Positions 10,201 through 14,734 of a stretch of 31,372 nucleotides of DNA are shown in pieces. Numbering within the stretch: the stretch's first letter is position 1; the number at the start of each line of letters is the position of its first letter. This stretch comes from a virus: IMG/VR virus record IMGVR_UViG_3300017767_000066, positions 1 to 31,372 of that record; one strand, 5' to 3'. The position numbers and the translations under genes were made by a program. The notes below the pieces were generated by a model. It was not told the DNA's origin. It did not search any database and saw only the letters and a program-made list of their open reading frames with translations.

Positions 10201-10689
10201 ATGCCACAATTGATTGATCCGAACGATATAATGTTCACACAATTCGAACCGAAAGTTCAGAACCGGTTCATCATGTATATAGAAGGCATTCCTGCTTACA
10301 CTATCAAGGCTGCCAGTCGTCCAAGTATCGAGTTTGAAGAAGTTGCACTTGATCACATAAACGTAAAGCGCTATGTTAAGGGTAAAGGGGAATGGCAAAC
10401 ACTTGATATAACAATGTACGATCCAATCGTTCCTTCAGCTTCACAGGCTGTTATGGAATGGGTTCGTTTATCTCACGAGTCAGTAACAGGCCGTGATGGA
10501 TACTCAGATTTTTATAAGAAAAACGTTACTTTTAATTTACTAGGACCAGTAGGTGACGTCATTGAAGAATGGCAACTTGTTGGTGCTTATATCCAGTCTG
10601 CTTCTTTTGGAGATTTAGATTGGGGTACAAGTGATCCAGTAGAAATCACTTGCACACTTAGATACGATTACGCAGTATTACAGTTCTAA
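10201..10689 (+). CDS. Tail tube protein (gp19-like)
   Basis: The 162-residue subunit of the inner tail tube. The sequence follows the T4 gp19 family. The N-terminus NRFIMYIEGIPAYTIKAASRPS is typical (NRFIMYIEGI, then TIKAASRPS). A beta segment VALDHINVKRYVKGKGEWQTLDITMYDP (given here in pieces: VALDHINVKRYVKG, EWQTLDITMYDP), the WQLVGAYIQSASFGDLDW turn and a final ITCTLRYDYAVLQF strand follow. Length and order after the sheath match contractile-tailed phages. It starts with GGAG six bases ahead of the ATG, behind its own promoter-like element. Stacked hexamers of this protein would form the DNA channel whose length is set by the tape measure gene downstream. Confidence 0.93.
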   Translation: MPQLIDPNDIMFTQFEPKVQNRFIMYIEGIPAYTIKAASRPSIEFEEVALDHINVKRYVKGKGEWQTLDITMYDPIVPSASQAVMEWVRLSHESVTGRDGYSDFYKKNVTFNLLGPVGDVIEEWQLVGAYIQSASFGDLDWGTSDPVEITCTLRYDYAVLQF

Positions 10690-10781: not shown

Positions 10782-11546
10782 ATGCCTAAAGAACAACCTA
10801 AGTTCCCGACTGAGGCAGTGGATCTGCCTAGCAAGGGACTTTTATATCCTAAAGGACATGCATTGTCTGAAGGATCGATAGAAATAAAATACATGACAGC
10901 AAGAGAAGAAGACATACTGACTTCTCAAAACCTTATTAAGAAAGGCGTTGTTATTGATCAGCTTTTGAAATCTTTAATAATTTCAAAAGTAAGCCTAGAT
11001 GAATTATTAATAGGTGATAAAAATGCAATAATGTTGGCAGCTAGAATACTAGGATATGGAAAAACATATGCTACAGATACAACATGTACTCATTGCGGTG
11101 CAGTAGAGAAAGAGTGCGAATATGATTTGACACTTTTTGAACACAAACCTATAGATGAAAACCAGTTTAAAGGTGAAAATAAGTTTGAATTTAAACTACC
11201 TAATTCTGGTAGAGTCATAGAATATAAATTTATGACACATAAAGATGAGCAAGATGCTGCTATAGAAGTTGATAGAATGAAGAAAGCAATGGGTGGTAGA
11301 ACTCAAGAAGTTACTACAAGGCTAAGGAAACAAATAGTTTCTGTTGATGGAAATGAAGACAAAGAGTTTATTAATAACTTTATTAACAATGAGTTCTTTG
11401 CTATGGATTCTAGAGCTTATAGAGAACACTATTCAGAATCACAGCCAGACATAGACTTCAGTACAGTCTTTTCTTGCCCTTCTTGCGGTGAAAATTCAGA
11501 TGTTGATTTGCCAATATCAGTAAATTTCTTCTGGCCCTCCCGGTAA
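10782..11546 (+). CDS. gp26-like T4_baseplate family protein / probable tail assembly chaperone, short form
   Basis: A 254-residue protein with the signature start of the T4 base-plate (gp26-like) family: AVDLPSKGLLYPKGHALSEG followed by IEIKYMTAREEDILTSQNLI. Two CxxC pairs (CTHCG near residue 105 and CPSCG near the C-terminus) suggest a zinc-binding ribbon. It ends VNFFWPSR. T4 gp26 is described as a baseplate-hub assembly component. Here the gene sits between the tube gene and the tape measure, the slot that tail assembly chaperones occupy in other long-tailed phages. A slippery heptamer six codons before the stop probably makes a longer product in a fraction of translations (next entry). 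The ribosome binding site AAGGAG is strong. Confidence 0.85.
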   Translation: MPKEQPKFPTEAVDLPSKGLLYPKGHALSEGSIEIKYMTAREEDILTSQNLIKKGVVIDQLLKSLIISKVSLDELLIGDKNAIMLAARILGYGKTYATDTTCTHCGAVEKECEYDLTLFEHKPIDENQFKGENKFEFKLPNSGRVIEYKFMTHKDEQDAAIEVDRMKKAMGGRTQEVTTRLRKQIVSVDGNEDKEFINNFINNEFFAMDSRAYREHYSESQPDIDFSTVFSCPSCGENSDVDLPISVNFFWPSR

Positions 11547-11737
11547 CCCCTGAATACCGGCCCATAGTACACGAGGGCATATTTCAGCTTATATACTTTT
11601 CAGAGGGAGGATTTACATTTAGTGATGTATATGGTATGCCTATCTATCTTCGTAAATTCTACATGAACAAGTTAGCTGAACAAAAAAAGAAAGAGCAAGA
11701 AAAGATAGATAAAGCATCTAGATCTAGAAAGAAGTAG
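10782..11737 (+). CDS. Probable -1 frameshift product of the gp26-like gene (318 residues)
   Basis: Shifting back one base at AAATTTC (11522-11528) joins the first 249 residues of the gp26-like protein to a 69-residue extension ending at TAG 11735-11737. The extension reads as a real protein: PVTPEYRPIVHEGIF, then LIYFSEGGFTFSDVYGMPIY, LRKFYMNKL and a charged helical tail. The extension frame is open from 11507 but has no ATG, GTG or TTG before 11636, by which point half the conserved-looking sequence would be lost, so independent initiation does not explain it. The short/long product pair between tube and tape measure recalls lambda gpG/gpGT and P2 E/E+E'. The frameshift is inferred from sequence and has not been measured. 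Confidence 0.7.
11522..11560 (+). promoter_or_regulatory. Programmed -1 frameshift site: slippery heptamer plus stem-loop
   Basis: The heptamer A AAT TTC fits X XXY YYZ in the zero frame of the gp26-like gene; slippage re-pairs Asn and Phe tRNAs on AAA TTT. Downstream, CCGGTA (11540-11545) pairs perfectly with TACCGG (11555-11560) around a 9-base loop, and GGCC at 11533 and 11559 offer an alternative pairing. The 11-base spacer is slightly longer than usual. Confidence 0.7.
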
Positions 11738-12096: not shown

Positions 12097-14734
12097 ATGG
12101 CTCAGAATAAAGATCTTAAAACAGCAGTACAACTTAAAAGAGAATATACAAAACTCTTAAAAGAACAGACAGCAATGGAGTCGAAACTACTCCGTTATCA
12201 GCAAGAAGGTATAGATCTTACAGGTGAAGAAAAAAGAGAATTTGTAGATTTAAAAAAAGCTACAGAAGAAGCAGGAAAAGCTGCTGCAAAAGCAGCTGAT
12301 AAAAGAACAAAAGCAGGAAAAAAAAGCAAAGAAAGCTTCAGAAGACTACGCACAATCATTAGACAGGAAACTAGCATCAGCATTATCAAGTGTTTCAGAA
12401 AAAGAAGAAGAACTTTTTTTAAAAGGATCTAAAGGATTTACAGGCCTTACAAAACTAGCAGAGGAATATTCAAGTAGCTCAAAAAAAGGCGCAGATAAGG
12501 CAACTGAATTAATAGACACAATAGTTGACTTGCAAACAGAAGTTATTGAAGCAGGCGCAGGCTTTAGGAACTTATCAGATGATCAAGCTCAAGCACTAAA
12601 TGACAAAATAAAAGAAATAGAAAAATCTGCAGATGATGTATTTAAAGGCGCATTTAAAGAAGGCGGAGATAGGACAAAAGATATATTTGAAGGAATGAAA
12701 GGTACTGCATCAGCAGGAAAATCATTTTCAGAATATGCATCAGACTTCCAAGATGCACTAGGCATATCTTCATCGTTATCAGAGGCATTAGGCGCAGCAA
12801 TTGTTTTTATATCATCAAAAATGGCAGATGCAGCAGAGGAAGCACAAAAATTTCAAGATAATTTAGGGGTTACAAATGCAACTGCATTAGGCCAAATCTT
12901 CAGTAGAGAATCACTAGCATTTAGTATATTAGGAATAAATGATGAGCTAACAGAGGCAAGCACACAATTAGGACTTGCATCAAACAACTTAAGCTTGGCA
13001 TCTAATAGATCCGGACAAGTAGCAGTAAACTTAGCACAAATTTCAAAAGATACAGGTGCATCTGCATCAACACTTGCAACTGTAAACCAATTATTTCAGA
13101 ACTCAGCAGGTGCAACAGCAGAGCAAGCTTCACAGCTACAGCTAGGACTCGCTTCAATGTCAGAAATGGCAGGTGTAATTCCAAGCCAAGTACTAGAAGA
13201 TATGGCAACCAATGCAGAAATGTTAGCAAAGTTTTCAGATGGGACTGCAGAAGGCATGGCAAGGGCAGCAATACAGGCACAAAAATTAGGAATAAACTTA
13301 TCTAAAGCAGGGCAGATCGCTGACAGCTTATTAAACTTAGAATCTTCAATAGCAAGTGAATTTGAAGCATCTGTTCTTATTGGACGCGATTTAAATTTTG
13401 ATAGAGCAAGAAATCTTGCACTAAACAATGACATTGAAGGCGCAATGAAAGATATCGTTGATCAGCTTGGAAGTGAAGAAGAATTTAATAGACTTAATGC
13501 AATACAAAGACAGGCGCTTGCAGATTCAATTGGTGTAGGAGTCGAAGATCTTGCAGCTATGGTTAGAAGGGGTGGTGAAGGTGCTGCTGATTTAGACATA
13601 GGCCTTAAGCTGCAAAAACAATCAAATAAAACACTATTTGACATCTTATTTGCATTGACGCCCGCTAAATTAGGATCTGCATTTAGTATAGCAGGAGGTG
13701 CAATAGCCGGAGCAGTTACAGCCTCTTCTAAAACTATTGCAAAATTTACAGCGCCATTAAAAGGAATGGCAAAAAGCATTGCAAAAAGAATCGGAATTGG
13801 GAAATTTCTCGGATCAGGAAGTATGTTAGGAAAGACAATGGCCAACATCTCAAAATTTTTCAGGCCAATGTTAGGATTTTTAAGTAAGTTATCATTGTTT
13901 CTTGCACCTTTAGTTGATATGCTGTCATTTGCATTTGGTGGTAAAGATACAAAAGAAAATGCGCTGACTAGTATAGGGTTTGGAGGAATTGGTGCAGGGA
14001 TAGGCGCAATTTTTGGTGGACCAGTCGGAGCAGCAATAGGCTACGGAATCGGAAGTATAGTAGGAATGCTAGTAGACACTGTATTTCCAAAAGTAGGCGA
14101 AATGCTATCAAACGGAATTTCAGGATTAATAAGCGGATTTGGAAGCGTGTTATCAGGCGCTGGAGCCCTTGCAACTGGAGCATTTAATGCAGGAATGACA
14201 GGTTTAGAAGATTTAGGGGTTGCACTGACATCTTACTTTAGTGGTCTAGGCAATGCAGTGATGAATGGTGTAAATTCATTTAAAGATAGCGCAGTAAATG
14301 TTTATTCCTCGGTAACTTCTGCATTTTCAAATTTAGGTCAAGTTGTGGTCGACGGAATAACCAGCGTATTTGATGCACTTGTTGAGCAGGCAAAAGAACT
14401 AATAGCAAGCGCAATGGATTTTGGTGGAAAGTTTGCTGATTTCTTTGGTCTTGGAGGCGATAAACCAAGTGGAGTTGTATCACAAGATTTTGTAATGAGA
14501 CCAGGACAAGGAATACAAAGATTTTCATCAGCAGATACAGTCGTCGGTGTAAAAGATCCAGGCGTTTTATCAGCACTAGCTGGTAACAGAGGAATGAATG
14601 ACTCCGGAACAAAACAAGTTGCATTATTACAGGCACTCGTAAATAACTCTAATGCACAAATGTCAGAAATTATAAGAACAAATAAAGAAATTACTGCAGC
14701 AGTTAACAACATAGGCAGATCTAAAGGAGCTTAG
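12097..14734 (+). CDS. Tail tape measure protein, frame interrupted by one base
   Basis: The protein that sets tail length and is threaded through the tube before DNA exit. The frame from the ATG runs 111 codons to a stop. The +1 frame is open from 12254 and continues, with clearly coding sequence (KKASEDYAQSLDRKLASALS), through the whole 734-residue downstream frame to 14734. Dropping one A from the eight-A run at 12318-12325 restores one 878-residue protein. It has a Lys/Glu/Ala-rich helical N-terminus, Ala/Ser/Gln-rich helices, a membrane-like Gly/Ala/Ile/Phe-rich part around residues 525-665 (GGIGAGIGAIFGGPVGAAIG) and a helical end. Length, composition and position after the tube and gp26-like genes fit a tape measure. 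The break may be a sequencing error, a mutation or slippage on the A run. Confidence 0.85.

Follow-up and report, generated by a model that had tools for sequence, protein, structure and literature searches.

A gp26-like gene in IMG/VR record IMGVR_UViG_3300017767_000066, a virus contig whose 31,372 bases were analysed in full (the window), most probably encodes a T4-type tail assembly chaperone that is made in two forms, a short form and a minority product extended in the -1 frame by a slip on the heptamer A AAT TTC. We put the probability of this reading at about 0.92. The comparative evidence supports the initial annotation, which had proposed a programmed -1 shift at this heptamer giving a G/GT-like pair. 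As judged from the alignments, both open reading frames (ORFs) are conserved in offset frames, with a constrained slip site and homology to T4-like proteins. We infer the slip mechanism and the ratio of the two products, and, by analogy, their binding roles. The features concerned are as follows.

10201..10689, + strand: tail tube protein gp19, for context (PF06841, 2.7e-7; phrog_4542, 1.6e-27)
10782..11546, + strand: gp26-like ORF, short product, G or TAC-N (PF12322, 5e-13; phrog_150, baseplate hub, 5e-16)
11522..11528, + strand: candidate -1 slippery heptamer A AAT TTC, of the form X XXY YYZ (AAATTTY invariant among unique -1 clade members, 36/36)
11526..11546, + strand: dual-coded stretch TTC TTC TGG CCC TCC CGG TAA (codon constraint far above background)
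11529..11737, + strand: -1 frame extension (T domain), from the heptamer to its own stop (AlphaFold2 pLDDT 90; third-position substitution bias)
11534..11578, + strand: two-step stem-loop, outer GCCCTC/GAGGGC and inner CCGGTA/TACCGG, spanning the zero-frame stop (kept only in near relatives)
12097..14734, + strand: tape measure region, split in the window record, for context (phrog_167, tape measure, 4e-8 for 12530-14734)

The short-product gene and its out-of-frame extension

The gp26-like ORF encodes 254 aa with two CxxC pairs. Its last residues read ...LPISVNFFWPSR, the C-terminus being NFFWPSR, and its zero-frame stop is the TAA at 11544-11546. The PF12322 T4_baseplate profile (T4 gp26/gp51) matches it with 49.7 bits, against a cut-off of 24.5. 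The gene occupies the slot between tube and tape measure to which it had initially been assigned: the gp19 tube gene lies upstream, and one small ORF and the tape measure follow. The tape measure ORF is itself broken into 12097-12432 and 12530-14734 by one extra A near 12318, found by comparison with three near-identical contigs (L002, L003 and L004). In L004 the tape measure is a single 815-aa ORF, and the extra A in the window record is probably an assembly error.

As first described, the -1 frame has no stop before 11737 and no early start; the first ATG in it, about 41 codons along, encodes the M of MPIYLR. The initial annotation had asked whether this extension is conserved with synonymous constraint. 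Of the substitutions in it, 61% fall on third codon positions of the extension's own frame, in the +1 and the -1 groups of relatives alike, and the motif Y..MP..LR..Y is near invariant. For the window's own extension, AlphaFold2 predicts three helices (mean pLDDT 90). The extension is a conserved protein domain, predicted by the model to have three helices. A fold search of the T domain against viral structures gave no significant match.

At least 596 relatives are present in IMG/VR. Similarity and pattern searches gave a pool of 219 sequences; the gene was found by profile in 214, and the frame count covers the 208 relatives with enough DNA past the stop. The extension lies in the +1 frame in 136 of these and in the -1 (equivalently +2) frame in 70, while two were not matched by the profile: RM378, in which a +1 extension is visible by eye, and L043, which is described below. 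No in-frame version was found (0/208), so that the single-base sequencing error considered at the outset finds no counterpart among relatives; in single-copy genes, the G part and the T domain never share a frame. Removal of duplicates left 125 +1 genes and 37 -1 genes, the latter comprising 36 members of the window's clade and one gene from a remote huge phage (L089, LR756511). In that huge phage, the PF12322 gene runs 19 codons beyond the FFxP motif and is followed by a shifted-frame extension.

Proposed slip site and stem-loop in the window's clade

The heptamer A AAT TTC was recovered at exactly 11522-11528 and in the zero-frame register (xxA AAT TTC) first reported for it. We propose that most ribosomes would terminate at 11544-11546 and release the short form of 254 aa. 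On A AAT TTC, where tRNA-Asn and tRNA-Phe are paired, a minority would move back by one base onto AAA TTT and read on to 11737, adding the three-helix T domain (...SVNF-LLALPVTPEYRPIVHEGIF...). A junction-spanning peptide predicted for the long product is, for example, SVNFLLALPVTPEYR. By analogy with lambda gpG/gpGT, the short form (G) may coat the tape measure protein, and the T domain may recruit subunits of the neighbouring gp19 tube.

Whether homologues keep the heptamer had been raised as a check, and within the window's clade they do, in all 36 unique members; no close relative with both ORFs in this arrangement was seen to have lost it. The clade consensus xxA AAT TT[CT] TT[CT] TGG CC[CT] TCC CRR TAR holds in 36 of 36 sequences, which share a common ancestry and so are not 36 independent events, and the invariance of its fixed downstream bases is partly by construction, since part of the clade was retrieved with a DNA pattern starting at TGG. 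AAATTT lies outside that pattern, and clade members found by protein similarity alone have the same AAATTT site.

The dual-coded stretch reads FFWPSR* in frame 0 and LLALPVT in the -1 frame. Its codon use departs strongly from background, with TCC in 36/36 sequences (background 2.8%) and CGG in 31/36 (0.3%). Among 87 invariant-residue columns with degenerate codons, only Asn AAT and Ser TCC are encoded by one codon in all 36 genes. The A of xxA is likewise invariant (36/36), even though its codon is one for Val, Thr or Ala, and codons for these residues end in A in only about half of cases. Much of the constraint 3' of the heptamer may stem from dual coding alone; the constraint on AAT and xxA is not explained in this way.

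A perfect 6-bp stem with a 9-base loop had been noted past the heptamer. It is present where reported (CCGGTA/TACCGG at 11540-11545/11555-11560, 9-nt loop) and is enclosed by a previously missed outer stem (GCCCTC/GAGGGC at 11534-11539/11573-11578), giving 12 pairs in total and a minimum free energy of -18.0 kcal/mol. Compared with composition-matched shuffles, the stem-loop is unremarkable (z -1.42; 18/200 as good). It is kept in about a dozen of the 36 -1 clade members, all near relatives of the window. We therefore do not read the hairpin as a conserved stimulator across the -1 clade; it would be a subclade stimulator at most. Mean folding energy in 40-nt windows across the -1 clade has a second minimum (-9.0 kcal/mol) about 60-100 nt past the zero-frame stop; it sits inside the T coding region, and folding there is stronger than at the slip site.

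Relatives with a +1 extension, tandem copies and T4

In the +1 group, the site is nearly always YTT T(GG/AC) CC[TA], mostly TTT TTT TGG CC. The codon that precedes YTT T is variable and never AAT; AAT stands before the FF codons in 36/36 genes of the -1 clade versus 0/125 unique +1 genes. Both the CTT T and the TTT T variants are compatible with a +1 slip of one tRNA and incompatible with -2. A -2 shift is accordingly disfavoured for this group, since re-pairing at -2 is impossible for the CTT T variants and the junction of the L043 fusion (below) is FFG, not FFFG.

By eye, the two groups are separated by a 7-nt indel, CGGTAAC, which is present in the window and missing from L053-type sequences. 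This indel turns a +1 extension into a -1 extension, suggesting that the direction of slipping was switched inside one gene lineage. In a G-part tree built without the slip columns, the window's clade (27 rows after thinning) is monophyletic with 99.9% SH-aLRT and lies among +1 lineages. One switch from +1 to -1 would be the most economical reading of this tree, in which the deep branches are long and their order is uncertain. Two members of the -1 clade, L183 and L189, still have TTT TTT TGG after AAAT, as might be expected of an intermediate. It is likely that the frameshift direction was reversed within an orthologous family, from an ancestral +1 (YTT T) to -1 (A AAT TTY), over the same codons, in one marine clade and together with the 7-nt indel. 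On this reading, phages can exchange one mode of recoding for another, or resort to gene duplication in its place, as T4 and L043 do, with both products kept.

Two tandem copies of the gene are carried by L043 (L043:2872-4744), first a gene for the short form and then one for the long form, fused in frame. Copy 1 ends FFWPGN* without an extension, and copy 2 is an uninterrupted 313-aa ORF reading ...NFFGITADYGPILHTEIFDLVFHGQGGFTYDAVYNMPIWIRRFY. The FFG junction of copy 2 is the exact junction predicted from a +1 slip at TTT T. The presence of both copies suggests that both products are wanted, and the arrangement resembles T4 gp26/gp51. A search for further duplications of this kind recovered L043 alone, a single contig. 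For folding the L043 fusion, we used aligned rows of the G part alone and left out mixed G and T rows, which were misaligned. The predicted structure has a mean pLDDT of 83, with low confidence in the T part because no aligned rows cover it. Against BFVD, this fold matches T4-like baseplate hub proteins (best E 1.7e-17). No significant match to the PDB was seen among the matches listed, and PDB sequence searches gave no relevant match. Two chains of the HK97 gp13 tail assembly chaperone (PDB 2OB9) have the top probability among the 50 PDB matches listed for the fold, at non-significant values (prob 0.28 and 0.23; E 1.2 and 4.0).

T4 gp26 (208 aa) and gp51 (249 aa) both belong to PF12322, and in gp51 about 48 residues extend past the family profile. 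In profile comparisons with the fused products, the gp51 alignment includes the extension and the gp26 alignment ends at the frameshift point. Other cultured T4-like phages, found by a search with the family, have a single gene with a -1 extension: P-SSM2 (AGT TTT TTC GTA TAA), HTVC008M (AGT TTT TTT TAA), Cr30 (GAT TTT TTT CTT TGA), KVP40 (GAT TTT TTC GTA TAA) and, with a weaker slip site, Vi01. These cultured -1 extensions match the gp51 C-terminus with 98% probability and the marine T domain with 92%. The direct match between the marine T domain and gp51 is weaker (51%, 36 columns), and gp51 as a single sequence had no significant match to the marine T domain. In a column-shuffle control of the profile comparisons, seven of eight fell below 1% and one reached 22%.

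By these profile comparisons, the window's T domain is homologous to the gp51 C-terminus via the -1 extensions of P-SSM2, HTVC008M, Cr30 and KVP40. Together, the alignments and this homology indicate that the short form has its T4 counterpart in gp26 and the long form in gp51. T4 and the window share the PF12322 family, a short form ending at the frameshift point and, in gp51, a T-like C-terminus; however, T4 has two genes where the window has one gene and a -1 shift.

Other readings and known chaperone systems

The long product might be explained without a slip on A AAT TTC. A slip further down in the window, for example on the FF, Pro or Arg codons, is in our view unlikely. The clade does keep TTC TTC TGG CCY TCC CGR almost without change as well, but a later slip needs neither xxA nor AAT, both of which are invariant though degenerate, and by eye the short stretch in which the T frame is open holds no other in-register X XXY YYZ heptamer. 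Slippage of RNA polymerase rather than of the ribosome is highly improbable as the source of the long product: most +1 relatives do have a run of seven T, from which the loss of one U would give the FFG junction too, but this run is absent from the window and most of its clade (TTCTTCTGG) and also from the +1 members immuto (TTT CTT TGG) and GXN1 (TTC TTT CGT).

The T ORF might instead be a separate gene, translated by re-initiation or from its own start codon with no frameshifting. A T-frame ATG overlaps the zero-frame stop in Cr30 (TGATG) and KVP40 (TAATG) and lies just after it in P-SSM2, so re-initiation is possible for such cultured T4-like phages, and in Mel-JY01 T is annotated as an ORF of its own. 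We nevertheless consider this reading very unlikely. No T-frame ATG, GTG or TTG is found near the stop in 23/36 -1 genes and 50/125 +1 genes, ATG alone being absent there from 30/36 and 97/125, and the window has no T-frame start for about 41 codons. The normal start codon for the downstream ORF that the initial annotation had named as contrary evidence is not conserved in relatives, and covalent fusions exist in L043 copy 2 and T4 gp51. That a fused gene was broken by a sequencing or assembly error, or by a real frameshift mutation, deserves practically no credence. A one-base artefact is likely elsewhere in the window (the extra A in the tape measure ORF), but every independent relative, cultured phages among them, has the break at the very codons where the window has it, which refutes the error reading, and the break occurs in two frames, by clade.

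We therefore retain the reading of one gene with a -1 slip on A AAT TTC. Like G/GT-type chaperones, this gene appears from its alignments to have a recognised slippery sequence conserved at the junction and a shifted downstream ORF that is conserved as protein without a start of its own. A Pfam search of the window gene gave no match to lambda- or P2-type families, and the lambda and P2 slip sites differ from the window's. The +1 slip of Listeria phage PSA is at a Pro codon, whereas relatives of the window gene would slip at YTT T instead. Lambda G/GT and P2 E/E' likewise stand before the tape measure and give a short and a C-terminally extended product by a -1 shift near the 3' end, as summarised in a 2016 review (PMC5009743). 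The same review describes tail chaperones made by a +1 shift in PSA and HSTV-2, which is the direction of most relatives of the window gene; those chaperones belong to a different protein family.

That review presents G-T frameshifting as widely conserved 'except T4' (PMC5009743), and some T4-like phages are described as having, in place of frameshifting, a pair of genes, one short and the other longer and fused (PMC10885494). The initial annotation regarded a link between T4_baseplate proteins and chaperones as one not usually made. It is already published: T4-like chaperone genes were identified by Vladimirov, Gautam and Davidson (2022, Virology 566:9-15), according to PMC10885494 and PMC12846349, so the general chaperone idea was known. 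Poly-T slippery sequences are reported for these genes (PMC12846349, citing the 2022 study); the window's site is AAATTTC, and most of its marine relatives are +1. The AAATTTY variant, the +1 majority, the direction switch and L043 were absent from the literature searched, in which the 2022 study is represented by papers citing it. As far as can be told, novelty lies in the switch from +1 to -1 and in the AAATTTY site.

Among the members of the T4-type family that were tested, most carry an out-of-frame extension, and these include KVP40, a pelagiphage, a cyanophage and Gram-positive phages. T4, traditionally treated as the exception, encodes the two forms in a short gene and a separate long gene. 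As -1, +1 and duplicated-gene solutions occur in one gene family, this family gives direct access to the evolution of recoding. There is also a consequence for phage annotation practice, in which the long chaperone is missed or the T domain is split off as a separate hypothetical ORF. In Microcystis phage Mel-JY01 (L083:3737-3973), the T domain carries an annotation of its own, as a hypothetical protein, and in Flavobacterium phage immuto (L082:3848-3958), only a 36-aa hypothetical ORF is annotated in the T-domain stretch. The Gram-positive phages GXN1, LIS04 and SP-15 (L084, L085 and L086) have unannotated +1 extensions near TTY TTT / NCC CGA, which are homologous to the marine T domain with 96% profile probability.
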